The notes: generated by a model not told the origin, from the sequence alone. 45,884 nucleotides of DNA from Fusobacterium sp. DD2 (GCF_018205345.1 NZ_JADRHM010000011.1:1-45884); one strand, 5' to 3'; shown: positions 351 to 43,904, numbered from the stretch's first letter. A program made the numbers and translations.

Positions 351-3300
351 TTAAAATTTTAAATTGAAATGTATTCCATAATTAATATCTGATTTACGAC
401 CTTTATTGTATTCCGCTCTCAAAGTTACTCCATAATTATCTGTTTTTTCTATTCCTATCTCTGCTCCAAGTGATAATCCAAGTCTATCTGCCTTTGGTTC
501 AGAAAGTTTATAATATTCTGTATCTGCTTTTTTAAGTTTTGCTTCATTTGCTTTGGTATAAAGTTTATTCATATCATAATCTACTTCAGAGTCAGCCTTC
601 AAAATAACTTGTTTATTCTCTCCAAATGGAATTCTATATTTTGTTTCTACTCCAACATTAGGTGTAGTGATAAAATAATTATTATCTTTTATCTCTAAAG
701 CTAAAGTATCATCTTTTTCCTTTACTGTACTGAAATGTCCATAAGAGAAATCTACTCCTGCATATGGTTTAATTGTCCATTGAGTAGTTATATCATAATC
801 ATACATAACTCTATTTTTCCAAGATAAATTTGTAGAGTAATATGTACTTCTAACTCTATAAACATCATTTCCCAATTGCATATATCTTTTTGCCGAATGT
901 CTATTAAGTGTTAATTCTGCTCTTGTCAAATATTTAAGTTTTACATCTTCATCGTGTTTATTCAATGCTTTTTGATAATGAACACCTACTTTTCCAGATA
1001 ATATTCTCTCTTTTGAACCTCTATTTGTTTTTCCTTCAAAATCAAACTTAGTTTCTGTAATTCCAGCAGACCAACCAAATTTTCCACCATAAGAATAACG
1101 TTCATTATCACGTAAATATAGAAGTCCTGTTGAGTTATATTTGTATCCAGCCACACCAAGTGTATTATCTCTATGTTTTCCTCTTGCATTTATAACACTA
1201 AATTTATTTACATTTCTTGTAACATTATATGATGACAATAATTCTTCATAAGATCTGTCATAAATATTTTCCACAGTTCTCATTCTCTCTTGAATATTTG
1301 AATATATATCCCCTCTTATATCTGCCAAGGCACTTGCAAATTCTTCATGAGTAGTTATTTCATCTAGAGATTTAAATTCATTTGAAACTTCAGTCTTAGG
1401 TATTGAAAGTCTAACTTTTTCTAAACCTAAACCTAAGTTTTTATATCTTTCACCTTTGATAAGATTTTGATATGGAATTCTTACCATAGTTATATCTCTA
1501 GTTTCTGTAGGTGGTACCAAGTTTGGATCACTAGATATCTTAGCAATCCATGATACAGAAGCAGATTTGATATCTCCAGTAAATGTTCCTATTCCCTCTG
1601 GAGCTACTCTAAATACATCAGGAATTGTATATTTTTGTATTGAATTTCCAGAAGTAAAGTTTGGAAGAATATATGCCAATCCTTCAACATTATCAGCTTT
1701 AATTACTGGTTTTGAAGTACTTATATCAATTCCCAAACCATCCATTGTCAAATCACCTTTTATGTGAACAATTCCCCCTGTTATTATTCTATTATCAATA
1801 GTAACTTTTCCAATTGATGTTATCTTTATTCCGCCTACATTTGCATCACGAACACCTTTTAATTGAATTTTATTACTTGTAGCGTCTACTGTTATTTTTC
1901 CTTCACTTACAAGACTTGCTATCCCACCAAGATATACTCCAGATGCTCCATTAGATAAATTAATTTCACCCTTATTTATAATATTTCCACTATAAGAAAC
2001 TATACCCATAGATGGATTCTTTCCTTCATTTGTACTTCCGTCTACATTTATTTTAGCATTTTCTTCAATTAATATTTCATGAATTCCAGAACCTCCCATG
2101 ATACCTATACCACCATTTGATACATCGAGAACTGCCCCTGATTTCAATGTTATTGATGCTGTTGGAACTCCGCTTCCATTTTGCTCTTTATATGCATATA
2201 GCCCTACTGATAGAGGTTTATCAACAATCATATGTCCAGTGTATTCTACTTGTGAATTTTCTCCAAAAATACCTATTGAGTTCTTATTTAATGCAGGATT
2301 ATCAAATCCACCTTTACCTATAGTTGTTTCTCCTACATGAATATCTCCTTTGTAAGAGATAATTGTTTTCTGTCCATATACACCTACAGCTTCCTTTCCA
2401 AGATTCATATTTGTATTTTCTACCTGCAGTCCATCTTTATTTGTTCCTAAATAATAGATTCCATACCCTTTATCTAAAACTTCTAAATTTGAATTACTTA
2501 CCTTCATGTTTCCTGTTCCTTTTTTGTAGATACCGATAGAATCTTTTCCTACTGTCATACTTCCAGATATTCCATTAATAGTTATATTTCCAGATCCTAG
2601 AGATAAAACCCCTATACTATCATGTTCACCAATTGTCATTTTACTTCTCGATTTTACATTGATATTAACATTTTCACCATAGATACCAATTGCTTTATCA
2701 TTACCAATTGTATGAATTCCTGAAGATACTACATTTGCTCCACTATCTTTTGCATAGAGTCCAACTCCACCATCACCAACAATTATATCACCATTTGAAG
2801 TTATATTTTTAGTACCTGCAACTCCAATACCGTTCTTGCCTACCTTGATATTTGAATTATTTACAATTTCGGAATTTTCAGTAAATATTCCATATGAATT
2901 CTCTCCAATACTAATATTTTTGCCAGAAGTAGTTTCTATCTTTCCACTTCCGTTTTTATATATTCCTATTGAATTATCACCAACTGTCATATCTCCTACA
3001 ATATTTATATTTCCTTTTTCACTTGCATAGATTCCTTTAGCTCCGTTATTTCCTACATTTAAATTATTAGCAAGTTTTATATCAGCATTTTTACTTCGAA
3101 TACCAATACCACTATCTTTTACAGTAATGTTTCCTTTAACATCGATATTTCCTTTTCCATAGTAAGAATCGATATTTTCAGATAAAATACCTATACCATT
3201 GGAATCAACAGTTATATCTTTATCAACTGTTTGTTCCACTCCAGTATTTATACCATATATACCTACATTATTTTCTCCAACTATTATCTTTCCAGCTGTT

Positions 3301-6300
3301 GATATTTTTCTAATATTAGAAGTATCAGAATTTGTCGAATATATTCCAACTGAAGTATCTGCAGAATTATTGTTTATTACAATTATATCTCCATTATTCA
3401 TAATATTTTGATCAGCTGTATTATATACTCCTATATTTTTTCCAGAATTTATTCTTAGTCCTCTAAGCTTAATTCCATGTCCAATTCCTTTTGCATATAC
3501 ACCTATTTGTCCTGTAGCGTTGCCTTCCCCAAGTACAATTTCTGATGCATCGACCATATGTGTAATATCTTCAAAAATATACCCCTTTGTATTATTTCCA
3601 CTTAAATGAGTCAATGTTCCATAAGATGTAACATTTCCTTTAGCATATATACCTACTCCACCATTAGAAACATTTACTTTAAAATTTTCCGATATGTCAG
3701 CAGGATTACTAGTATCACCTTTTGCATAGATTCCTATTCCGTTAACACCATTTACTTTAATGTCTGTAGGATTTGTCGTACTTACTTTACCTCCACTGAC
3801 TGCAAGAGCAATTCCATTTTCTCTAACAGCTAGACCACCATCTAGATTTTCCAATTCAATATTACTTTTTTTGTCAGCATAAACAAGAATTGAATCTCCA
3901 GAATCTGATTTTATACTTCCACTATCAAATTTTACTGTACTCTCTTTTACATAAACTCCTATTGAATCTTTTCCAAGGACAATATCTGTTTTTGAAATAG
4001 TTCCATGAGCTTTTTCTGTGACAATTCCGATTCCTCTTTTTTCTTTATTCTCTGTATTTCCAATTACAATCTTATTTTTATTAGTAGAATCAAGAGCGAA
4101 TTCTCCATTTTCAAATATTACTCCTATTCCATCTTTTAAAGAAGTAAATTCAAAATCTTTAATACTTGTTTTAGATTGGTTACCTTTTACATAAAGTCCT
4201 TTTTGTCCTGTCCCTTTTGACTCTATTTTTCCAGGATTAATAATTTCATTTGAATCAAATTTATTTGCAAATATTCCTATTGAATCATCACCTGTTAAAA
4301 TAATGCTTTTACTTTCTACTTTAGTATTTTTATCAGCATCTTCATTTGTTGTATATATACCTATACCAGAAGTTCCCACCTCTATTTTATTATTTCTTAC
4401 TGTGGCACCTTTTGCATAGATTCCTATTCCATTTTTTCCTGATAAAGAAACTATTGATCCATCATTTCTAATTTCAACCTTATTAGGACTAACTCCTTTT
4501 ACAGACGCTGCCATTCCTATAGAATTATCTCCATTCAGATTTATCTTTCCATTAGGTCCAAGATTCAATAAATAATTTTGTAATGAACTATTGTATACTC
4601 CATATACCCCTACTCCATCTTTGGCAACAGGTATAACAGAGTCAATCGTTGAATTTGAATTATTTAGAGTTATAAAACTTCCCTGTCCTTCAATTATAAG
4701 ATTTGAACCAACATTAATTTCTCCATCTTCTTGATAGATTGCTGTCCCTTTAGAATCTCCAAAGACCATTTTTGTATTTCCAGCATTTCCTATATCAACT
4801 TTTCCTTTTTTGATGACAATTCCTGCCCCGCCATCAATATTAAATGTTGCATTATCTGTTTTAAATTCTGTTTTTTCAGGAACTAATACTCCTATTCCTT
4901 TTCCAACATTTAATTCTCCACTATATACAACTTTTGTTGTCGTACTCACATCACCACTCTCAAGTGATATTCCAATAGTTTTTTCTCCCTGTTGTTTAAC
5001 ATTTGCTTTTATAGGTCCATTATAGCCTTTTCCTACATAGATTCCTATTCCAAAATTATTTCTTTCTCCATTACCAACTATTATCTTTGAATTATTTCCA
5101 AAAATTACACTTGAATCTTTCAGATACACACCTATATTTCCTATTCCATTCACTGCTGAAATCTTTCCATCAATCTTTGTTCCTTCGTCTGCATACAGAG
5201 ATATGGCATTTTTTATACCTGAATTTACTATTGGCATAATATCAAAATCTATTACTGAATTAGCTGCATATACTCCAACTGCTGAATTAGCTGTTAATTT
5301 TAAATTTCCAGCTTTAATATTATTTTCTTTTGTATTTTTAAGAGCTAGAGCAATATTTTGTGATTCTATTTCTCCTTTATTTTTAAAATGAGCATTTTGT
5401 CCATTTACATAAACTCCTGTTGATTTAAGAGTATCTTTATTTAAAGAAATAATTTTTCCACTATTTTCTCCCACTGAAGAATCAGCAACATACATTCCAA
5501 CTGCATCTCCAGTTACTTCTATATCTTTATTATTTATAACTTCACTTTTCAATGCTCCTGAGTCTTTTACAGCTGCCATACCAACAGAAAGAGAACTAGG
5601 TGTTATAAGATCCTTTATAACTATTTTTCCACTATTAATTCCAGTTCCATTTGCCACATAAATTCCTGAAGATTTATCACTATTTCCCTCTATATTTATT
5701 CCAGCAATATTTTCAAATTGAGAATTTCCTGTCAAATATGTAGCAACATTTTCAGTTCCTGCTAATATTCCTATATTTTTAGAATTCTTAATATGTACTC
5801 CTCCAGCGATATATAGAGCCATAAGATTATTTCCACTACCAATATTTAATTCAGTATCATGATTAAGTTCTCCATTTACAGTTCCCTTGTTATAATATAC
5901 TCCAACTGCATTTGTTCCAGTTGTATCATTTTTTAAAGAAAGAACCCCTCCTTTAAGATTACTTCCATTTGTAAGATAAATTCCTGTTCCACCTTTAGAA
6001 ATTTCAATATTATTAGTTCCATCAATATTAATAGTTCCATGATTTCCATATATTCCTATCCCTTTATCTTGAGCCTTTATCGCAGAATTTTTTATTTTAA
6101 TATTACCATCTGCAAATATTCCAGCTGTTCCTTCATTTTTAGACAGTATTTCTGAATTTTCAAAACTATTATAAATATTTTTTTCATTTCCACTATTTTT
6201 AGCATAGATTCCTATACCCTTATTTTCAGTTTCTACTTTACCTTTAAAAGTATTTACTACGCTACCATTATTATTGGCAACTGATGTGTCCATGTATACT

Positions 6301-9300
6301 CCTATAGTTCTATTATCTCCTACAGAAGTTTCACTAGGATTTACATGAAGATTCTTCAAAGTAATTGTACTTCCTTCTGTATTATATCCTTGTAGATATA
6401 TCAATATATTTTTGTTTTCAGGCTTTTGATTAAAAGTCAAATCAGAGTCTGTTATATTGGCATTTGATCCAGCAAGATATACTCCTATACTTTCTTTTGA
6501 ATCTGAGCTAAATTCGATATTCGAAGTATCTTTCAATTCCACTTTTGCTTTATTTCTTCCATAAATTCCAACTGTATTCTTATTTTCTAAAGTTATCTTA
6601 CCTAAATCTTCAACTTTCTTTTCACCTTCAGCATATATTCCTACACTTTTTTCTCCTTTAAGCTGAATTTGGGCATTTTTTTGTAAAACTATATCATTAT
6701 TTTTACCTACTATTCCTGTAGAATTATTACCAACTTCAAATGTAAACGAATCATTTCCATTACCATAAGTCAACTTCTTCTCAGTAGCACCTGCAACTCC
6801 AACACTATTTTCATTAATCTTTCCAGATACAAGTAGATTTATATCCCCAGATTTTGAATAATATGCTGTTATATTATTCGAATCCCCCACATTTACTTTT
6901 GTTTTCATATCATACGAAGCCAAATTTTGAGTATAATCAACAAATAATCCAATATTTCCATTCTTTGCATTTGGATTTGAAAGAGTTAGGGTACCTGATG
7001 AAACTGTACTTTTATTTTGATCTCCTGCTAAATATATACCAATTCCATTATCACCATTAAAAGTAACTGTTCCCAGATCTTTTGTTTCTTTTCCAACTTT
7101 TGAATCGCTACTATATATTCCAATTCCTTTGTTACTGATATTTATATTTCCTAATTCTGGTGTTATTATAACATTATGTCCATATATTCCTATCCCTTTA
7201 TCTCCAGTTGTTATATTTCCAGTATTTATTATTACATGATTTGAATCTGCTAAGTTTGTATTATTATTTTCAGCATATATTCCTATTGCGTTTTCTCCAG
7301 ACATTTTTATGTCTTTGCTATTTGTTATAGAAATATTTCCTTCTCCAGTTTTCCCACCAAATTCATTTTTTATTAGAGCTCCATTATCAAGTCTATATGC
7401 CAGTCCTAAAATACCTATAGAATTGTTTCCTCCAACTTCTATTGCTCCTTTATTTGTAACAATTGAACCATCTACTGCATACACTCCTATGGCTTTATTA
7501 TTTACTGTATTGCTTCCTTTTTCTACTAGTATTTTAGATTTATCATCTATATCCACTTTTCCATAGTTTATAAATAATCCAACTGCACCATTTCCTGCAT
7601 CAGTTCTATCTGCTTCTACTGTAGCATTTGCTAAATTTATCTGTGTTTCTTCAACTGAAGTTGCCTTTTTACTTGAATTTCCTTCTAATGCCACAACTTG
7701 ATCATTAAAAAATTCTGAATCCTTTGAATTTAGCTTTGCAGTAACATTATTATTAACATTTATTTTTAATCTTTGTCCTAAAAATCTTCTAAAGTAATAG
7801 TTAGATGGACTCTCTAAATTATTATCACTCTTATTTAAAGCAACATCTATATCTAAATTTCCACCATCTACAGCTGCTAATCTATATTTATCATATTTAC
7901 TTCCATCAGCCTTCGTTCCTGCTTCAATAGTTATATTGGTTCCAACTTGATTTTTTACATCATCTTTTATTTGAGATACTCTAATTGTTCCTATATTTAC
8001 AAGATTAAATACATTTACATCATCTGACATGACTGTTATTTTACCATTTGTGAATGTAACAGGGTTACTTATATTTTTATTCAATTCCATCGCTATAGAT
8101 TTCCCACGTAAAATAATATTCCCATTTGTAAGATTTATTGTTCCACCATCTTTTGCAAATACAGAATATCCATTTCCATCATAATCCAAAGTAGCACCTT
8201 GTGCATTTACCTGCGAATTATTACCAATTGCTAAAATTGATGTAGCTCCTTTATCGATTTTTATACGTTGATTGGATATATTTATTATTCCACCATCTTT
8301 TGCAATAACTGCTGTTCCTTGATTATCATCACTTTTTATAGTAATCGTTGGATTTCCATTTTTATTTATTCTTGAAAAATCAATAGTTCCACTATTCTGA
8401 GCATAAAGTGCTACTGAATTACCACTTAAATAAAATAAGCTGTTTTCTGGTAACTTAACTTGAGAGCCTTCTGTGTACATTACAACTGAATTATTTAAAA
8501 ATTTATTTTCGCTACCAACCTTTACATTCCCAGTGATTTTTAAAGAAGATGAAGTATTTCCCTTAAGAAGTCCTATTCCATTTCCTTCCCCATCACTTAT
8601 AATTATATCTCCATCGAAAATAATTTTTGCCGAATTTTCGATTCCAAAAGCGATATTATTTTTTCCGCCATCTATAACAATTTTATTTTTTATATTTAAA
8701 TCTTTATTTTGAACCGTGTTAAAAGTTCCTTCTTTAGCATAAATACCTATACTTTCTTTTGCATAATTATTTATTGCTATCAAAGTAGCTGCTTTAGTTT
8801 CCTTTCTTTGATCTTGCAATATTCCTATAGCTTTTTCTACATAACTTGCGTCATTTCCATTAATGTTTCCAAAATCTTGAGGAGGTTCTTTTCCAATTGT
8901 AAAATTCACAAGATTTTTTACATTTCTAGCTCCTTCTCCTGTATTTTTTGAAACAAATCCTATAGACTCGTCTCCTAATAAATCTATAGATTTTTTAAGG
9001 TATACAAGATGACCATCTCTCATGGCACTATTACCTTCATCTTGTGAAAAGAATACTCCTATCCCCTTTTGTCCTCTAACTTTTATTTCTCCATCATTTA
9101 TAAATCCTGCTCTTCCAGAAGATAGATATTTATATGCCCAACCAACAATTATTGACCTTTCTCCATCAGCATACATTTTCCCTGTATTCGAGTATATCCA
9201 TGCTTTTGCCTGACTTGTATCTGGACTATGCTTAATTATAATGCTATCAGTTCCCTTAGCAGTTATTATTCCCTCATTATCAATAAAATTCGTTCTATAA

Positions 9301-10766
9301 TTACCGTCATTATGTGAAGTAGTAAAGAAATAATTTGATTTACTTGCATTTAAATTTATTTTTCCTTTATTAATAAATAATAACTCCTCGTCAGGGTTAT
9401 CTCCTACTATTCCTGAATATGCTTTATAAGTTTTTAATAGCTTATTTTTATCAGAATCTATATATCCTCTATTTTTATATTTTTCTATAGTCCCATACTC
9501 ACCAGTTTTTAATTTAACTCGACCTTCAGTTTCTAAATCTATCACTTTATATTCTGGTTTATTTACATTTATTACAACATCTCTACTAAATTCTGAATAC
9601 GGTACATTTAGAAGAGTACTAAAAAATATCTGGTTTTCGTATGTTCCATTAGAAACTGTCTCGCTTTGATTACTTTGAGATTTTATATATCCTATATCTT
9701 TTGCAATACTGGCATCTCCTTCATAACCTTCAACTTTTGTATTATCAGCAATTGTGATAATACCTTTTTTTACAGATATTTGAGATATCATCCCAGCATT
9801 AGTTCCCCACCAAATAGAATATCTATTATAACTAGGATTGGCACCTCCTCCTGTAAGCTCAGGGGATTCAATTTGGGGTACTACTATCTCTTTTATTTTT
9901 GGTATATCCGGTTGAGCTATAAGTCTAGGGTTGAATCCACCAGGCACAGACGGAGCCTCTACAGTTGGTGCATTAACTTTTACTGGCTCAACTACTTTAG
10001 GCTCATTTATTTTTATATTGATTGCTTTAATTTCTGCTACATTTACAGGTGTCAAACTTGAAATATCACTTGGTTTATCCACATGGACACTTGGTATATT
10101 AGGTGTTACAGTCTTTACCAGTTGTGGATTTTTAACATTTGGAGTTTCAATCTCTATTACTGGCTCTAAAGGAGGATTAAAACTTACCAATGAAACCTCT
10201 TTTTTAATTATGTTTGGTACAGATAACTGTTTTTCATCAACACTTTTTGGTTTTATGTTAGCTCCAAAATCAATACTATCTGTAAATTCTATCCTATTTT
10301 TTATGACTCCATTACTTCCATAATATGTTCCATCGTATATAGTATCCCATTTGTTTAATGATTGTGGAATATTTGATGTATATTCGCTAGAATTAAAATT
10401 TGCTTTTGTTCTATTTTTATTCTCTGTTCTTTTGTTCCAAATTCCATTGAAAAACACTTGGTAAGAAGAATCTAATGACTTTATCCAAAAGGCTCCTCTT
10501 CTTAACAATTTTTCAATTTCTAGATTTAAGTTATCTATCTCACTTTTATTTTCTTTTATTATTTTTTCAACATGTTCTTTTTCAATTGAAACCTTAGCTG
10601 CTAATTCTTCTCTTGTAGGTATAGCTTCACTTATCTCTGCTGAATATCCTATCGCTCCTGTGATTAGAAAACTTACCAAAAGTGATGTTGAATAAGTTAT
10701 TCTAGATGATTTTTTCACAAATCGTTTTAATATTTTTTGACTTTCATTTAAATATTTATTCCCCAT
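351..10766 (-). CDS. Giant type Va autotransporter adhesin, 3471 aa
   Basis: This is a secreted surface protein of the large fusobacterial autotransporter kind (the size class of RadD and Fap2; neither identity is claimed). Residues 1-43 form a long basic signal peptide ending near GAIGYSA. Residues 50-90 are charged and probably helical; about 180-305 are proline- and valine-rich. From about 330 to 3100 the passenger is a very long beta-helix-like repeat in which GIGIY, SIGIY or AVGVY motifs recur dozens of times. The last roughly 280 residues look like the outer-membrane barrel and end in aromatic FNLKF, as expected for BAM recognition. The start follows GGGAGG. The frame is intact over 10.4 kb despite flanking IS decay, so it is presumably functional. 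Likely role: adhesion or coaggregation; ligand unknown. It is transcribed alone, from a promoter near 10.82 kb. Confidence 0.93.
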   Translation of the reverse strand: MGNKYLNESQKILKRFVKKSSRITYSTSLLVSFLITGAIGYSAEISEAIPTREELAAKVSIEKEHVEKIIKENKSEIDNLNLEIEKLLRRGAFWIKSLDSSYQVFFNGIWNKRTENKNRTKANFNSSEYTSNIPQSLNKWDTIYDGTYYGSNGVIKNRIEFTDSIDFGANIKPKSVDEKQLSVPNIIKKEVSLVSFNPPLEPVIEIETPNVKNPQLVKTVTPNIPSVHVDKPSDISSLTPVNVAEIKAINIKINEPKVVEPVKVNAPTVEAPSVPGGFNPRLIAQPDIPKIKEIVVPQIESPELTGGGANPSYNRYSIWWGTNAGMISQISVKKGIITIADNTKVEGYEGDASIAKDIGYIKSQSNQSETVSNGTYENQIFFSTLLNVPYSEFSRDVVINVNKPEYKVIDLETEGRVKLKTGEYGTIEKYKNRGYIDSDKNKLLKTYKAYSGIVGDNPDEELLFINKGKINLNASKSNYFFTTSHNDGNYRTNFIDNEGIITAKGTDSIIIKHSPDTSQAKAWIYSNTGKMYADGERSIIVGWAYKYLSSGRAGFINDGEIKVRGQKGIGVFFSQDEGNSAMRDGHLVYLKKSIDLLGDESIGFVSKNTGEGARNVKNLVNFTIGKEPPQDFGNINGNDASYVEKAIGILQDQRKETKAATLIAINNYAKESIGIYAKEGTFNTVQNKDLNIKNKIVIDGGKNNIAFGIENSAKIIFDGDIIISDGEGNGIGLLKGNTSSSLKITGNVKVGSENKFLNNSVVMYTEGSQVKLPENSLFYLSGNSVALYAQNSGTIDFSRINKNGNPTITIKSDDNQGTAVIAKDGGIINISNQRIKIDKGATSILAIGNNSQVNAQGATLDYDGNGYSVFAKDGGTINLTNGNIILRGKSIAMELNKNISNPVTFTNGKITVMSDDVNVFNLVNIGTIRVSQIKDDVKNQVGTNITIEAGTKADGSKYDKYRLAAVDGGNLDIDVALNKSDNNLESPSNYYFRRFLGQRLKINVNNNVTAKLNSKDSEFFNDQVVALEGNSSKKATSVEETQINLANATVEADRTDAGNGAVGLFINYGKVDIDDKSKILVEKGSNTVNNKAIGVYAVDGSIVTNKGAIEVGGNNSIGILGLAYRLDNGALIKNEFGGKTGEGNISITNSKDIKMSGENAIGIYAENNNTNLADSNHVIINTGNITTGDKGIGIYGHNVIITPELGNINISNKGIGIYSSDSKVGKETKDLGTVTFNGDNGIGIYLAGDQNKSTVSSGTLTLSNPNAKNGNIGLFVDYTQNLASYDMKTKVNVGDSNNITAYYSKSGDINLLVSGKINENSVGVAGATEKKLTYGNGNDSFTFEVGNNSTGIVGKNNDIVLQKNAQIQLKGEKSVGIYAEGEKKVEDLGKITLENKNTVGIYGRNKAKVELKDTSNIEFSSDSKESIGVYLAGSNANITDSDLTFNQKPENKNILIYLQGYNTEGSTITLKNLHVNPSETSVGDNRTIGVYMDTSVANNNGSVVNTFKGKVETENKGIGIYAKNSGNEKNIYNSFENSEILSKNEGTAGIFADGNIKIKNSAIKAQDKGIGIYGNHGTINIDGTNNIEISKGGTGIYLTNGSNLKGGVLSLKNDTTGTNAVGVYYNKGTVNGELNHDTELNIGSGNNLMALYIAGGVHIKNSKNIGILAGTENVATYLTGNSQFENIAGINIEGNSDKSSGIYVANGTGINSGKIVIKDLITPSSLSVGMAAVKDSGALKSEVINNKDIEVTGDAVGMYVADSSVGENSGKIISLNKDTLKSTGVYVNGQNAHFKNKGEIESQNIALALKNTKENNIKAGNLKLTANSAVGVYAANSVIDFDIMPIVNSGIKNAISLYADEGTKIDGKISAVNGIGNIGVYLKDSSVIFGNNSKIIVGNGERNNFGIGIYVGKGYNGPIKANVKQQGEKTIGISLESGDVSTTTKVVYSGELNVGKGIGVLVPEKTEFKTDNATFNIDGGAGIVIKKGKVDIGNAGNTKMVFGDSKGTAIYQEDGEINVGSNLIIEGQGSFITLNNSNSTIDSVIPVAKDGVGVYGVYNSSLQNYLLNLGPNGKINLNGDNSIGMAASVKGVSPNKVEIRNDGSIVSLSGKNGIGIYAKGATVRNNKIEVGTSGIGIYTTNEDADKNTKVESKSIILTGDDSIGIFANKFDSNEIINPGKIESKGTGQKGLYVKGNQSKTSIKDFEFTSLKDGIGVIFENGEFALDSTNKNKIVIGNTENKEKRGIGIVTEKAHGTISKTDIVLGKDSIGVYVKESTVKFDSGSIKSDSGDSILVYADKKSNIELENLDGGLAVRENGIALAVSGGKVSTTNPTDIKVNGVNGIGIYAKGDTSNPADISENFKVNVSNGGVGIYAKGNVTSYGTLTHLSGNNTKGYIFEDITHMVDASEIVLGEGNATGQIGVYAKGIGHGIKLRGLRINSGKNIGVYNTADQNIMNNGDIIVINNNSADTSVGIYSTNSDTSNIRKISTAGKIIVGENNVGIYGINTGVEQTVDKDITVDSNGIGILSENIDSYYGKGNIDVKGNITVKDSGIGIRSKNADIKLANNLNVGNNGAKGIYASEKGNINIVGDMTVGDNSIGIYKNGSGKIETTSGKNISIGENSYGIFTENSEIVNNSNIKVGKNGIGVAGTKNITSNGDIIVGDGGVGLYAKDSGANVVSSGIHTIGNDKAIGIYGENVNINVKSRSKMTIGEHDSIGVLSLGSGNITINGISGSMTVGKDSIGIYKKGTGNMKVSNSNLEVLDKGYGIYYLGTNKDGLQVENTNMNLGKEAVGVYGQKTIISYKGDIHVGETTIGKGGFDNPALNKNSIGIFGENSQVEYTGHMIVDKPLSVGLYAYKEQNGSGVPTASITLKSGAVLDVSNGGIGIMGGSGIHEILIEENAKINVDGSTNEGKNPSMGIVSYSGNIINKGEINLSNGASGVYLGGIASLVSEGKITVDATSNKIQLKGVRDANVGGIKITSIGKVTIDNRIITGGIVHIKGDLTMDGLGIDISTSKPVIKADNVEGLAYILPNFTSGNSIQKYTIPDVFRVAPEGIGTFTGDIKSASVSWIAKISSDPNLVPPTETRDITMVRIPYQNLIKGERYKNLGLGLEKVRLSIPKTEVSNEFKSLDEITTHEEFASALADIRGDIYSNIQERMRTVENIYDRSYEELLSSYNVTRNVNKFSVINARGKHRDNTLGVAGYKYNSTGLLYLRDNERYSYGGKFGWSAGITETKFDFEGKTNRGSKERILSGKVGVHYQKALNKHDEDVKLKYLTRAELTLNRHSAKRYMQLGNDVYRVRSTYYSTNLSWKNRVMYDYDITTQWTIKPYAGVDFSYGHFSTVKEKDDTLALEIKDNNYFITTPNVGVETKYRIPFGENKQVILKADSEVDYDMNKLYTKANEAKLKKADTEYYKLSEPKADRLGLSLGAEIGIEKTDNYGVTLRAEYNKGRKSDINYGIHFNLKF

Positions 10767-33381: not shown

Positions 33382-33424
33382 ATAGCCTTGTTCCACTTCC
33401 TCCACCTAATATAATTCCTTTTAT
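33382..33424 (-). pseudogene. Remnant of the 5' end of an rmlA-like gene
   Basis: Read on the minus strand it encodes IKGIILGGGSGTRL then a stop. The DNA matches the start of rmlA (43842-43881) over about 40 bases with one internal mismatch; the start codon is ATA instead of ATG. It is a footprint of a lost or recombined rmlA copy. Confidence 0.75.
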
Positions 33425-33562
33425 TTCTCATTTCATTTTTAATTTGTATTTTATTATATAACAAAATATAAAATGTTTGTAAATTAAAAGATGATTATTT
33501 TCTAATAAAAATATAGTTTCCAGATAAACCTTGCTTATTTTACCTCATAAATATAAATTATT

Positions 33563-33590
33563 TTGGTATTTTTTTATTACATGTTATAAT
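33563..33590 (+). promoter_or_regulatory. Promoter of the PHP-ATPase operon
   Basis: A perfect TATAAT at 33585-33590 preceded by TG (extended -10), with a possible -35 TTGGTA 16 bases upstream. The gene starts at 33659 after GAGGAGGGAG. Confidence 0.6.
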
Positions 33591-33658
33591 GAAGCTTATT
33601 AATACTTACTTATGTATTTACTAAAATATCTACAAATATTTTAAAGAGGAGGGAGTTT

Positions 33659-35932
33659 ATGTTTTTTGACTTACATATTCACTCCAAAGCAAGTGAATAT
33701 AAAGAAGATAAAGAAGTCATAAAAAATTCTACAATAGAAAATATAGATGTGCTTTTAGAAAAATTAAATGAGTATAATGTAGGATTATTTTCTATTACAG
33801 ACCATAACAGATTCGATAATGAATTATATAAACAATTAGATATTCAAATAAAAACTAATAAATATCCAAACGTAAAAGGATTGGTTGCTGGAATAGAATT
33901 TGATGTTTCATTAGATGATAAGATGAAGAGTTGTCATATCATCGCAATTTTTGATGCAAAAAATAAAGAAGATAACTATAAAAAAATTAACGATGTTCTC
34001 AATAAAAATTTATTAAAACAACAAGATGAAGCATATAAGAAAGATCAATTTGAAGCAATATTGAAAGAAATTGGACTTAACGTTATTTTAATTGCCTGTC
34101 AAAGAAATAACTTAGATCAACATGATGGTAGACATAATTCTTTAAGTGAATCTACTGAAGAACCTAAAGAATTTATTAAAACTAAATATATAAGCGCTCT
34201 AGAATTTCAAAAACCCGCTGTAGAAGGAATTCTAAAAAATAATTTAAAAACTATACCTGTTCAAATTGGGTTAGTAACAGGAAGTGATTGTCATGAATGG
34301 ACTGAGTACCCAAATCATAGCAAAGACAAGAAAAATGATAATTTTCATCATTCATCTGCTAAAATTTTGCCAACTTTCAAAGGATTATTAATGGCAATTA
34401 CATCTCCTGAAACACGAATTAATCAACCATCTAATAAAAATACCAAGTACATCGAACACTTCAATATACAAGGTAAAAAAATTAAACTAGCAACTGGAAT
34501 CAATGCTATAATTGGTGAAAATGGTTCTGGTAAATCCACTTTATTAAATCTACTAAATGATACTAATTCTTCACCAAAATATATAAAAGATTTAATTAAG
34601 ACCAACCAATTGGTATGTGAAAATCAATATCCAGGAAAAAAATTATTTATTGGACAAGGAGATATTGTCACAAAATTTCAAAACTCTGAACTATTTCCTA
34701 AAACACAATTTAAACAAATACAACACGAAAATTTTCGCTCTATGTATAAGGATTACGCAAGCAAAATATACAAATATATTCAACAAAAAATAGACCAAAA
34801 TGAAGCAACACAAAATTTAAAACAAAAAAAATTAGCATATAATAGCTTAATTGAGGAATCAACTTATTTTATACAAATCATTTGTGATAAAAATTATGAT
34901 AATATTGACAATCCACACGCTGAACCAGCAAATAAATTATCTAACATTTTTAATGCTTTAAAACTACTGTTAGAAGATCAATATTTTCAACAAGATAAAG
35001 AAGAAATTGAAAAAGCTATTCACATTTTAAATCCCCTTTTAGAAAAAATAAAAACTAAATCAGAAAAAGTAGATATAGAAAAAAACATTAAAAATACAAT
35101 ATCATCTCAAATAGCAAATTATAGTCTTAGCACCACTGCAGCTGCGTCAACAAGAGACAACCAGCAACAAGATTATACTCAAGAAATAATGGAATTTATT
35201 AATAATATTGTTAGTACAATAGTAAAAACAACTACAAATCCAGTTTTTCCAACATGTCCTCCAAAAATATCTGGTTTCACAGAAAATAAATTACACGGAT
35301 TTAGTTTTAATTCTGAAGCTTACTATCATGACAAAAATGTTCACGATGAGTTTTTAGCTCAAATGTTTAATAAAAATTATTCAAATTTAAAAAAATTACA
35401 ATCAATAACTACTAATGAAGAGTTTGTTTCTGCAGTAACAGGCTGTACATCTGTAAATAAATTAAGCGACATCTATAATAATAATTTAGAAAAATTTTTG
35501 AATAATATGTGTAAAGAACAAAACTTTATTATAGATGTGTCTAGTGAAAATAAAACTCTTGGTAGTACTCTCGGTGAACAATCCTTAGCATATTTTAAAT
35601 ACATTACAAAACATGAAAATGAAAAATGTATTTTTTTAATTGACCAACCAGAAGATCACATTTCTAATAATAATATTAGTAAAAATCTTATAAAATATTT
35701 AAATTCAATTAGATATAATAAACAAATTATAATTGTAACACATAACCCATTACTTGTTGTAAATCAAGATGTTGATCAACTTATTTTTGTAAAGAACAAT
35801 AATAACAAAATAACAATTACTGCTGGATGTTTAGAGTTAGAAGATGATGAAACTAACATATTAGACATAGTTGCCCATAACATGGACGGTGGAAAAGATT
35901 CTATAGAAAAGAGGTTAAGAGTTTATGGATAA
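33659..35932 (+). CDS. PHP phosphoesterase-ABC/SMC-like ATPase (TrlF-like), probable defence protein, 757 aa
   Basis: Residues 1-250 form a PHP domain: DLHIHS (4-9), ITDHN (46-50), GIEFD and GSDCH (208-212) give the metal ligands of a nuclease or phosphatase. An ABC/SMC-type ATPase follows, with Walker A IGENGSGKST at about 285-294, a signature-like LGEQS near 640, Walker B FLIDQPEDH (D662) and VTHNP. The middle is helical with weak coiled coils. Such PHP-ATPase fusions occur in defence islands and are thought to cut nucleic acid or nucleotides upon infection; direct function of this protein is not known. The next gene overlaps by eight bases. It is much more lysine/asparagine-rich than the glycan genes, consistent with transfer. 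Confidence 0.82.
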   Translation: MFFDLHIHSKASEYKEDKEVIKNSTIENIDVLLEKLNEYNVGLFSITDHNRFDNELYKQLDIQIKTNKYPNVKGLVAGIEFDVSLDDKMKSCHIIAIFDAKNKEDNYKKINDVLNKNLLKQQDEAYKKDQFEAILKEIGLNVILIACQRNNLDQHDGRHNSLSESTEEPKEFIKTKYISALEFQKPAVEGILKNNLKTIPVQIGLVTGSDCHEWTEYPNHSKDKKNDNFHHSSAKILPTFKGLLMAITSPETRINQPSNKNTKYIEHFNIQGKKIKLATGINAIIGENGSGKSTLLNLLNDTNSSPKYIKDLIKTNQLVCENQYPGKKLFIGQGDIVTKFQNSELFPKTQFKQIQHENFRSMYKDYASKIYKYIQQKIDQNEATQNLKQKKLAYNSLIEESTYFIQIICDKNYDNIDNPHAEPANKLSNIFNALKLLLEDQYFQQDKEEIEKAIHILNPLLEKIKTKSEKVDIEKNIKNTISSQIANYSLSTTAAASTRDNQQQDYTQEIMEFINNIVSTIVKTTTNPVFPTCPPKISGFTENKLHGFSFNSEAYYHDKNVHDEFLAQMFNKNYSNLKKLQSITTNEEFVSAVTGCTSVNKLSDIYNNNLEKFLNNMCKEQNFIIDVSSENKTLGSTLGEQSLAYFKYITKHENEKCIFLIDQPEDHISNNNISKNLIKYLNSIRYNKQIIIVTHNPLLVVNQDVDQLIFVKNNNNKITITAGCLELEDDETNILDIVAHNMDGGKDSIEKRLRVYG

Positions 35933-36170
35933 AAAAATCATACTTGAAATGCAAGAAAATAAAAATATCGAAATCACTGTTAATGGTGAAATAAAGTTAA
36001 CAATAGAAAAAAAAGAAAGAACAATTAAGGCAGACGACATCTATATGTTATTAGATCATTCCCCTGGTGATAAGTATTCAATAGAAATTGTAAATAAAAA
36101 AGGCATTGATAAACCAGTCATTGAATTTTTTAGCGACTTATTAAATGATATTACAGAACAACTGCCTTAA
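35925..36170 (+). CDS. Small partner protein of the PHP-ATPase, 81 aa, unknown
   Basis: The start codon lies inside the end of the ATPase gene (ATGGATAA overlap), behind AGAGG, so the two are translationally coupled. The protein is acidic at its C-terminus, has a beta-rich start (IEITVNGEIKLTIEKKE) and no recognised motif. Tight coupling suggests that it is a subunit, sensor or inhibitor of the ATPase. I do not recognise a family. Confidence 0.7.
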   Translation: MDKKIILEMQENKNIEITVNGEIKLTIEKKERTIKADDIYMLLDHSPGDKYSIEIVNKKGIDKPVIEFFSDLLNDITEQLP

Positions 36171-36171
36171 A

Positions 36172-36255
36172 GAAAATGTTTTAATTTTTGATGATTTATT
36201 TGATTCTGGTGCTACACTAACCGCAGTGTGTAATGAATTTAAAAACAAAAAATAA
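36172..36255 (+). pseudogene. Phosphoribosyltransferase C-terminal remnant
   Basis: Two bases after the preceding stop, the frame reads ENVLIFDDLFDSGATLTAV, then CNEFKNKK and a stop. The VLIFDD-x3-SGATL piece is the PRPP-binding motif of ComF-like phosphoribosyltransferases. The rest of the enzyme is missing, so this is a deletion remnant fused behind the defence operon. Confidence 0.65.
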
Positions 36256-36259
36256 AAAA

Positions 36260-36409
36260 ATGTCTGAAGAGGCTGATGTAGGTTTTATGATTTGGAATAA
36301 ACTAAGCGAGGGAACTCTAAATAATATGGTAAATATGCTAGTTCAAAAGAAAAATGTTTGCTTATTCCTTCATCATGAAAACCAAGTGGTAATATTAAAT
36401 AATAGCAAT
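36260..36409 (+). pseudogene. Remnant of a 'GFMIWxxxSxGTLNN' protein
   Basis: The frame gives EADVGFMIWNKLSEGTLNN and a following NVCLFLHHENQVVIL. This resembles the end of small nucleotide-hydrolase or SLOG-like proteins that follow phosphoribosyltransferases in some bacteria. It runs without a stop into the terminator of the fic gene, so its true end is lost. It may originally have followed the phosphoribosyltransferase remnant. Confidence 0.45.
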
Positions 36410-36436
36410 AAAGGCTGTTGGAAACCAACAGCCTTT
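36410..36436. terminator. Bidirectional terminator between the defence operon and fic
   Basis: AAAGGCTGTTGG and CCAACAGCCTTT form a perfect 12-bp stem with a 3-base loop, five bases from the fic stop. On the minus strand it is followed by ATTGCTATTATTT. Confidence 0.8.
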
Positions 36437-36441
36437 AAAAT

Positions 36442-37671
36442 CTATATAATACTTTTTATTTCATCACTTACAACTCTTGTTAAAGGTTTCTTATTAACAG
36501 TGGTAATTAAACCAAGATCAGTTAAGTTATTTAAATATTTTCGTAAAGTTCTAACTGACTTCATTCCTTCTATATATCTTAACAATTCCTCATCAGTCAA
36601 TGGATTTTGTTTAGCAAAGATATAGTTTTGCATATAAATATATAGTGCATCTGCTTCAATTTCATCAAGATTTTTTTCTTTTTTCAATTTTTTTAAATAA
36701 TCCTTTGCATAATCAAGTTGCAGCCTTTTATCTTTCAGCATCTCAATTATACTTTCCTGACCATTGAGAATAAACTCCAACATACCAAGAACAAAAAATG
36801 TCAATTCTCCCTTATTACGTGGAGATGATGTTTCTTTAAAAAGATTTGAATATTTATTTTTATCTCCAAAAATACTGTAAGAGAGTGAAAGACCTGTAAA
36901 TATATCAATTTTACGTGCTAAATACATTGAAAATAGAAATCTTCCAAATCTTCCATTTCCATCATAAAAAGGGTGAATATATTCAAAATAGTAATGAACT
37001 ATAGATGCCTTTATAAGAGATGGAACATCTTTTCTATTCATAAATTCTATAAGTTCTTCTAAATGCTTTATAATAAGTTCTTCTGAGGAATCACCAGTAT
37101 GGACATTACTCATACCACTGTGTATATATACTCCTTCTTTTCTAAATAGCTTTCCATCCAGCTCATTTTCTGGATTTTTTAATATATCCTCTGCAAAAAT
37201 ATCGTCATACATCTTTCTTACTTCTTCTGGAAAATCAATTGTTTCTATATTCCCTTTAGTAATCTGAATATATTTATTTACTATTCCAGAAAATCTAGTA
37301 GTCTTACGAGATGTCATACTTTCATATATATCTTTTTTAGTGGAGTGAACCCCTTCAAGCCCATTTGTCTTTACGATCTCATTTGACATAATATCAATAA
37401 TGCAAGCCTGGTGTGCAGCATTTGGCAACTTACTGCTGATTTCCATAATCTTTTTACTATTTAAAAATATTTTTTCCTGTTTCATTAAAAGTTCACTTAC
37501 AGGAAGACAAAAAAGCTTATACTCCTCCTGAGTCACTTTATTCCCCTTTAATACAGGATAAATTTTTAATTCGGTATTATATGCACATGGATTATTGATT
37601 CTAAGAGCATATTCCTTATCTATATCCTGCTTTTTATAGTATAACTTTTCGAGAGCTTCATACTTTGTCAT
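36442..37671 (-). CDS. Fic-family protein with C-terminal winged helix, 409 aa
   Basis: The core motif HPFYDGNGRFGR (about residues 234-245) is a full Fic active site, HxFx(D/E)GNGRxxR, which transfers AMP or another nucleotide to proteins. The inhibitory helix motif [S/T]xxxE[G/N] appears before the core as TNGLEG near 100, so activity is probably self-restrained. The last about 65 residues look like a winged helix (LLRYIEGMKSVRTLRKYLNN). Stand-alone Fic proteins of this build are reported in anti-phage defence. It is transcribed towards the PHP-ATPase operon and ends at a shared terminator. The start follows AGGAGGTGC. Confidence 0.88.
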   Translation of the reverse strand: MTKYEALEKLYYKKQDIDKEYALRINNPCAYNTELKIYPVLKGNKVTQEEYKLFCLPVSELLMKQEKIFLNSKKIMEISSKLPNAAHQACIIDIMSNEIVKTNGLEGVHSTKKDIYESMTSRKTTRFSGIVNKYIQITKGNIETIDFPEEVRKMYDDIFAEDILKNPENELDGKLFRKEGVYIHSGMSNVHTGDSSEELIIKHLEELIEFMNRKDVPSLIKASIVHYYFEYIHPFYDGNGRFGRFLFSMYLARKIDIFTGLSLSYSIFGDKNKYSNLFKETSSPRNKGELTFFVLGMLEFILNGQESIIEMLKDKRLQLDYAKDYLKKLKKEKNLDEIEADALYIYMQNYIFAKQNPLTDEELLRYIEGMKSVRTLRKYLNNLTDLGLITTVNKKPLTRVVSDEIKSII

Positions 37672-40706: not shown

Positions 40707-41798
40707 ATGGCTATTTTAAAAATAAAAAAGAGAAAAGATCTATTTGTACAAATTGACAAGAAAACTTTGGAGGATAAAAATCTATCATTTAAGGCTACTG
40801 GACTTTTAGCATATCTAATGGGAAGACCTGAAGACTGGAAGATAATACCATCTCACCTGGAAAAGTGTAAAACTGACGGATTAAGCTCTATTAAAAGTGC
40901 TCTGTTAGAATTAAGAAGAAATGATTACTGCCACTATTTCGAAGTTAGAGAAAAAGGTATCATCAAAGAAACCTTCTACTATGTTTTTGAAATTCCCACT
41001 CCTTACAGTGATGATATGTTAATGGAAATACTTGAACATTTTAAAGATACATCTGAACCTGTTACAGTAAATTATAAAGCTGCAAAAACAAAATCAGAAA
41101 ATACAACTCCAGAAATAAAAGAACAAGATAATGAAGTTAAACCTGAGAATCAATTTTCATCACAACCAGAAATTGAAAAACCATTAGTGGATAATCCGTT
41201 AGCGGATAAACCGTTAGCAGAAAAACCGCTAACGGAAAATCACCCACTACTAATAATAGATAGTACTAATAACAGAGTTAGTAATAAAAGAGATACTAAA
41301 GAAAGAATTACTAATAACAGAACTACTACTAAAGAAACTAATAAAGAAAGTAGTAGTAGCCTTTATAGTTTTCTTGATGAAGATAAATACCCTAGAATTA
41401 ATGAGGCAACTATCAAAAATATCAGAAATAATATTCAAGATTTAACTGAAGATAGATTTAAAACTTTGTACCTTTTGACTGAGGAGTATGTCCTGTCTGG
41501 TAAAGGGAATAATTTTAATGCTATTTTATACAAAGCTCTTAAAAATGAGTGGAGTTTTAAAGCACCAGTACGTAAAGAAACAGAAAGTGTTCTAAGTGAA
41601 GATAAGAGAAAATGGCTATCTAGATACAGTGGAATTACTACCAACAAGACCCTTAAAAAAGAGATAGAAGGTATAATCTGTGAGATTCCTATTGAAGAGC
41701 TTCGTAAAAATAGAAGTGTTCTTTCTTCTATGGATACTTTCCAGTTTAAGATGTTTTTAATTTCTCTTAAATCTAGATGCAGAGCTACGAGAGGGTAA
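40707..41798 (+). CDS. Replication-initiator/replisome-organiser-like protein, 363 aa
   Basis: Residues 1-95 (LSFKATGLLAYLMGRPEDWK, then KTDGLSSIKSALLELRRNDY) are the winged-helix of phage and plasmid replication proteins. A long low-complexity linker follows (about 125-225) with repeats such as NPLADKPLAEKPLTENHP and many asparagine/threonine/arginine residues. The C-terminal part (about 228-363) is a helical DnaD-like region. In phages such genes often contain the replication origin in their own linker. No integrase, relaxase or other phage gene is nearby, so this is an orphan. The ribosome site is AAAGGAGGAG. It is one of the few plus-strand genes here. Confidence 0.7.
   Translation: MAILKIKKRKDLFVQIDKKTLEDKNLSFKATGLLAYLMGRPEDWKIIPSHLEKCKTDGLSSIKSALLELRRNDYCHYFEVREKGIIKETFYYVFEIPTPYSDDMLMEILEHFKDTSEPVTVNYKAAKTKSENTTPEIKEQDNEVKPENQFSSQPEIEKPLVDNPLADKPLAEKPLTENHPLLIIDSTNNRVSNKRDTKERITNNRTTTKETNKESSSSLYSFLDEDKYPRINEATIKNIRNNIQDLTEDRFKTLYLLTEEYVLSGKGNNFNAILYKALKNEWSFKAPVRKETESVLSEDKRKWLSRYSGITTNKTLKKEIEGIICEIPIEELRKNRSVLSSMDTFQFKMFLISLKSRCRATRG
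41196..41235. repeat. Iteron-like repeats and 10-bp inverted repeat within the replication-like gene
   Basis: CCGTTAGCGG (41196-41205), a related CCGTTAGCAG (41211-41220) and CCGCTAACGG (41226-41235) are spaced 15 bases apart. The outer two are exact inverted copies. They encode the PLAxKPL repeats but are GC-rich for this region. Confidence 0.6.
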
Positions 41799-43011: not shown

Positions 43012-43881
43012 CTATATCTCCTCACTGATATCAACCAGGTATTTTCCATAATCTGATTTCAGAAGTGGTTTAGCAAGAGTCAAAAGTCTCTCTTTAGTTA
43101 TCCAACCATTTCTATAGGCAATCTCCTCTATACAGGCAACATAGTTCCCCTGTCTTTCCTGGATTGTTTCTATAAAGTTGGAAGCCTGCAGAAGATTCTT
43201 ATGAGTTCCTGTATCAAGCCATGCAAATCCTCTTCCTAAAAGATTTACTTTTAGACTTTTCTCCTCCAGATACATCCTATTTATATCTGTAATCTCAAGT
43301 TCTCCTCTTCCACTTGGTCTGACTTTTTTAGCTTTTTCAACTACTGTATTATCATAAAAATAGAGTCCAGGTATTGCAAATTTAGATTTTGGATTTTGAG
43401 GTTTTTCCTCAATTGATAGTACATTCATATCCTTATCAAATTCAACAACACCATAATCATTGGCATTTTTTACTGCATAGCCAAAAATCTGAGCTCCTTT
43501 TGTTAAACTTGCTGATTTTCTAAGAAGAGCTGTAAAAGATTGTCCAAAGAATATATTATCTCCAAGAATAAGTGCAACACTTTCATTTCCAATAAACTCT
43601 TCTCCAATTAGAAAAGCCTCAGCAAGTCCATTTGGTTCTTCCTGAATAGCATATTCTATACTCATTCCTATATCACTGCCATTCTCTAAAAGCTCTTCAA
43701 AACACTTAATATCTCTAGGTGTAGAGATTATTAGTATCTCTCTTATTCCAGCCAGCATAAGTACTGATAAAGGATAATATATCATGGGTTTATCATATAT
43801 TGGAAGTATCTGCTTTGATACACTTCTTGTAAGAGGATATAGCCTTGTTCCACTTCCTCCAGCTAATATAATTCCTTTCAT
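43012..43881 (-). CDS. rmlA: Glucose-1-phosphate thymidylyltransferase, 289 aa
   Basis: [16 protein letters not shown] (residues 3-18), [16 protein letters not shown] near 23 and the LGDNIFFG stretch near 105 identify RmlA, which joins glucose-1-phosphate and dTTP. The length is standard. Its ribosome site AAAGGAG lies only 10 bases from the end of the 54-bp repeat array, so any promoter of its own must lie in or beyond the array. A 40-bp copy of its first codons survives at 33382-33424. Confidence 0.95.
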
Positions 43882-43904
43882 CTCTTCTTCTCCTTTACTT
43901 ATCT

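Follow-up and report, generated by a model that had tools for sequence, protein, structure and literature searches.

Organization of the locus

The locus described here lies in a window of 45,884 nucleotides from Fusobacterium sp. DD2 (the whole stretch of DNA analyzed; all window coordinates are counted from its first letter). The genome is of fusobacterial type, 2.36 Mb in 155 contigs, and the surroundings of the locus are devoted to surface glycans. Three ORFs named in a preliminary description of this DNA were present, intact and correctly placed. An uninterrupted ORF at 33659-35932 (+) encodes a 757 aa protein in which a PHP domain is joined to an ABC/SMC-type ATPase. It is followed at 35925-36170 (+) by an ORF for a small acidic protein of 81 aa, here called the partner, which has homologues at the equivalent position in other genomes. 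The partner ORF starts at 35925 within the ATPase stop (ATGGATAA); the resulting overlap of 8 bases bears out the coupling of the two genes that had been claimed. A 409 aa Fic-domain protein is encoded by an intact ORF on the opposite strand (36442-37671, -). Convergence of the pair on the Fic gene was correctly described, and a sequence scan places a bidirectional terminator-like hairpin (36409-36437) between the partner side and the Fic gene.

A strong ribosome-binding site of the ATPase gene, AGAGGAGGGA, can be read at 33645-33654 (+). A consensus scan gave a possible promoter, TTGGTA-16-TATAAT with an extended -10, at 33563-33590 (+); the number of matches in that scan was not above chance. 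An Rfam scan of the region found no RNA. Elsewhere in the window, two ORFs were judged by eye: a plasmid/phage-type replication-organizer/HTH-like protein (40707-41798, +) inside the rml glycan locus and on the strand opposite to it, and a very large fusobacterial-type autotransporter of 3471 aa (351-10766, -).

Rearrangement around the two genes

Self-BLAST of the window revealed a 47 bp scar of the rmlA 5'-end at 33382-33428 (-), which forms the left edge of a rearranged insert. It is 94% identical to 43839-43885 over 47 bp, and its translated remnant reads KGIILGGGSGTRL. On the other side, outside the ATPase-partner unit, similarity searches identified the relic of a two-gene PRTase-SLOG-like cassette at 36163-36400 (+). 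What remains is the C-terminal 30 aa of the PRTase and, from the second gene, about 50 aa; the middle is deleted. The PRTase part scores 19 bits with Pfam Pribosyltran and is PsyrT/ShosT-like in PADLOC, and the second gene is SLOG-like, an assignment made by eye. Plasmids of Pantoea ananatis and Serratia marcescens (L138, L139) carry intact PRTase and SLOG-like genes side by side, and the intact cassette is possibly a defense module of its own. Neither the rmlA scar nor the relic had been noted in the preliminary description. Together they mark the insert as a patchwork of several events. Of the "defense-like insert in a glycan locus" proposed there, the glycan setting stands; a clean defense module does not, given the gene scar and the wrecked second cassette.

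The PHP-ATPase

Alignment assigns the PHP ligands of the window ATPase to H6, H8, D48, H49, E80, H93, D210 and H212; Cys147 replaces one further usual PHP His, which is kept in the other sub-branch. The ATPase half carries a Walker A motif GENGSGKS (286-293), Q333, the signature LGEQS (638-642), a Walker B motif LIDQPED (D662/E665) and H695. A Pfam scan recognized the ATPase half alone (AAA_21, ABC_tran) and found no TOPRIM domain. The top NCBIfam match is TrlF, beginning at residue 3, followed by Spaf_1101 and Ppl, all far under their cut-offs. A single-chain AlphaFold model had a pLDDT of 48.5 and was left out of the fold search. In a motif alignment, several PHP ligands are altered in the canonical TrlF of Pantoea and intact here; the ATPase clade to which the window protein belongs thus looks more clearly catalytic than canonical TrlF.

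The small partner protein

The 81 aa window partner has a pI of 4.8. It is not a chance ORF, because homologues of 100-101 aa that are 42-52% identical to it occur at the same position in Eubacterium callanderi and one Negativicutes genome. All members of the partner family are acidic (pI 4.2-5.1), with a mutual identity of about 20-50%. A model built from three sequences (pLDDT 83) has the order beta-beta-beta-alpha-beta-alpha with a long final helix. No convincing family match was found in Pfam, NCBIfam, PHROG, PADLOC or the PDB, and Foldseek of the model against PDB and BFVD gave no match at E < 0.001, in keeping with the earlier designation of the protein as unknown. Matches to Lnu(P) (19.9 bits), YfhO and PDC-S17 were rejected as chance since they are below the cut-offs and mutually inconsistent; so was an RPA14-like match (17 bits) of the E. 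callanderi homologue.

One homologue, in genome G153 (L021:677-1339, -), is a fusion: the partner domain continues in frame into an S24 domain (Pfam S24, 68 bits), and the gene adjoins the ATPase. The S24 domain resembles UmuD, LexA and the CI repressor, with an ACAG (Ala-Gly) site, the Ser of GKSM and the Lys of KRLK, and lacks an HTH. The fusion was seen once, on a contig of 4.5 kb; further searches did not turn up another.

Pairing of ATPase and partner

Relatives of the ATPase were gathered from GTDB contigs, genome searches and IMG/VR. At all nine loci of the clade whose 3' side is intact (9/9), the ORF of a homologous acidic partner begins before the ATPase ORF ends, with an overlap that is mostly 7-31 bases. 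These loci come from Fusobacteriota, Clostridia, Negativicutes and one IMG/VR contig. The partners span 81-104 aa: 81 aa in the window, 101 in E. callanderi, 100 in G627, 84 in G1116, 99 in G508, 94 in G486, 104 in G1070 and 103 on the IMG/VR contig, the G153 partner being fused to the longer protein described above. A profile of six partner sequences retrieved the remaining three (L077, E 2e-21; L131, 1e-13; L132, 3e-4). Neither this profile nor a version of nine sequences gave a match at any of the TrlF-like loci collected, roughly 60 in number. In a tree built from 33 ATPases, the partner-bearing members form one clade (SH-aLRT 100) apart from all partnerless ATPases. The clade takes in L005 and L076, whose contigs end too early on the 3' side; the G153 fragment was too short and was left out.

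At the window locus, an ATPase belonging to this clade stands next to a small partner homologous to the others. Conservation of the small protein beside such ATPases had been set beforehand as the check that could refute the proposal, and the pairing proved to be without exception at the intact clade loci. Judged from these genomes, ATPase and partner make up a two-gene unit that is conserved and moves horizontally.

Three to four more distant PHP-ATPases (L133, L134, L084, L089) are each followed by an acidic protein of 78-107 aa. Homology of these proteins to the partner was not demonstrable (hhalign E 0.08-0.2). The L134 ATPase and its small acidic protein adjoin HsdM/HsdS.

Defense neighbors and mobility

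On the IMG/VR contig (L077:283-7647), 8 nt separate the unit from BREX pglZ-brxL (PADLOC, 920 and 1122 bits) directly 5' of it, an arrangement that suggests an accessory cassette of BREX. The ATPase ORF of this contig has a break in frame near 7160. Other neighbors of clade members are a GajA-type OLD nuclease (846 bits), the C-terminus of a type I R-M HsdR, PDC-M45/DUF488 genes, and a DUF4365 gene with similarity to an Aga-type REase. By genomic co-occurrence alone, the ATPase-partner unit is thus found repeatedly beside known defense systems in several bacterial groups.

The copies of E. callanderi (L004:5742-8058) and Veillonella (L005:5742-8058) share 93.7% DNA identity over 2317 bp, from the HTH gene onward, which indicates recent transfer of the unit between classes. 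Relaxase-bearing elements carry the E. callanderi and G486 copies. The G627 and G486 copies, both in elements, are close to guaA, an integration site of mobile elements. Glycosyltransferase genes adjoin the Veillonella copy, as they do at the window locus. The window ATPase has no close copy in the 99 relatives of the window genome that were searched (0/99), and when the window clade was first used as query against phage records and viral contigs, no close relative came up.

The Fic neighbor

The Fic protein has the active site HPFYDGNGRFGR and an N-terminal inhibitory motif of the (T/S)xxxEG type, TNGLEG, both complete as described before. A Fic core with an N-terminal inhibitory motif is common to it and to SoFic and other class II Fic proteins; its score with the SoFic model NF046030 is 57.5 bits, and the curated cut-off of 550 is not reached. 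Its subfamily is present at E < 1e-20 in 15 of 61 fusobacterial genomes, the window genome included; its surroundings vary, with pyrimidine biosynthesis and phage-like genes among them. Two copies are frameshifted (L058:6477-7558, L059:7965-9003) and hence dispensable in those genomes. Among the 15 carriers, a window-clade ATPase occurs in the window genome and in no other, and no Fic gene of the subfamily was found beside a PHP-ATPase in the other genomes examined.

ATPase, small protein and Fic had been grouped together. That they form one defense insert is very improbable: the Fic gene is adjacent and convergent, shares the terminator-like hairpin, and has SoFic among its PADLOC candidates (119 bits), yet in other genomes the surroundings of its relatives are unrelated, housekeeping or phage-like, and never include a window-clade ATPase, and the PRTase-SLOG relic separates it from the partner. 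On genomic context, Fic was rejected as a component of the unit and is judged to be an independent bystander.

Proposed function

The reading we favor, with a probability of about 0.6, is a mobile two-gene anti-phage (anti-invader) system, in which an ATPase with a PHP nuclease effector is accompanied by a bound regulatory partner that most likely restrains the nuclease. A defense role of the unit is regarded as probable. The ATPase would serve as an SMC/Rad50-like sensor and its N-terminal PHP metallo-phosphoesterase as the nuclease effector, so that phage-specific DNA or nucleotide states would be sensed and DNA cut via the PHP site. By analogy with what is known of the Ppl family, the protein probably has nuclease activity and responds to DNA ends or nucleotide levels. 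Translational coupling would yield near-equal amounts of partner and ATPase, and the small acidic partner, as a bound regulatory subunit, may hold the nuclease in check until infection. An inhibitory or sensing subunit is tentatively suggested by the coupling, the acidity, the minimal fold without a catalytic motif and the one autoprotease-fused homologue.

The partner might instead be an activator, a target-recognition subunit or a folding partner, needed for cutting by an ATPase that is inert alone; the defense role would be unchanged. Strict pairing and translational coupling would suit any stoichiometric subunit, and the fast divergence of the partners (about 20-50% identity) would suit a sensor of varying phage triggers. 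We regard this as a possible reading to be taken seriously. The autoprotease fusion and the acidity of all partners suit a removable inhibitor somewhat better, neither of them strongly, and we consider such an inhibitor somewhat likelier than an activator. In a bolder version, which we regard as speculative, the partner would act on the PHP nuclease as a lock that can be removed, and in some bacteria this lock would be tied to the SOS signal via the LexA/UmuD-type autoprotease fusion. RecA filaments on damaged or invading DNA would then lead to cleavage of the fusion and release of the nuclease, and a defense effector would be gated directly and post-translationally by the DNA-damage response.

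Two further readings are unlikely. Since the only known setting of TrlF itself is a temperature-restriction locus, the unit could have a non-defense role, as a stress or DNA-repair/housekeeping module like TrlR-TrlF-TrlG of Photorhabdus. Among the named families TrlF comes closest (119-173 bits), and an HTH gene lies just upstream of the E. callanderi and Veillonella copies, as a small regulator does in the trl operon; the patchy distribution, the cross-class transfer, the BREX, R-M and Gabija neighbors, and the lack of a TrlG-like helicase adjoining any copy examined argue against such a module. It is likewise doubtful that the window copy is a decaying relic, possibly non-functional, whose partner, where it meets the PRTase relic, has lost an acidic tail of 20 aa. 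The partners of E. callanderi and G627 have 100-101 aa and the window ORF stops where the relic starts, but the 84 aa partner of G1116 is naturally tailless, and in the window the ATPase is fully intact and both the ribosome-binding site and the overlap are retained.

With Ppl, TrlF and Spaf_1101, the PHP-ATPases are emerging as a group of defense-type nucleases whose control is poorly understood. The partner-bearing branch, with one S24-linked and one BREX-appended case, is a compact system for studying how such a nuclease is silenced and what fires it, and the partner profile lets annotators tell this branch from TrlF.

Comparison with known systems

TrlF is known only from the Photorhabdus temperature-restriction locus, not from phage defense, and the mutations there hit trlG (PMC7554251). 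Like TrlF, the clade has an N-terminal PHP domain followed by an ABC-type ATPase with a DQPED Walker B, and some of its copies have a small HTH gene upstream, as in Photorhabdus trlR-trlF-trlG. The window ATPase scores 159.7 bits with the TrlF model (NF045780) and its clade 119-173, under the cut-off of 350. In the ORF lists of the loci inspected, no TrlG-like helicase gene is adjacent; the small partner is found instead. The PHP motifs, degenerate in Pantoea TrlF, are intact in the window ATPase, and the two fall in separate clades.

Ppl has been described as a 3'-5' ssDNA exonuclease that responds to 3'-OH ends, with NTPs inhibiting both its PHP and its NTPase domain (PMC12904381). As in the clade, PHP and ATPase are in one chain and the PHP domain is likely the nuclease effector. 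Ppl is described as a single-gene system, whereas the clade has the partner at every intact locus, and the window ATPase reaches 44 bits with the Ppl model (NF042955; cut-off 1000). With Spaf_1101 (NF045781) it aligns over nearly its full length at 82.4 bits, below the cut-off of 475. Gabija GajA/OLD, Septu PtuA and PARIS AriA share the ABC/SMC-type ATPase half (PADLOC, about 30-42 bits); in contrast to these, the unit has a PHP domain in place of TOPRIM, and has no UvrD, HNH or AriB partner.

Of the undescribed form of PHP-ATPase system that had been proposed, a conserved mobile pair distinct from TrlF, Ppl and Spaf_1101 is upheld, and the Fic protein is not part of it. As far as sequence comparison goes, the unit is a branch of the PHP-ATPase group with an unclassified partner, and not a separate kind of system.
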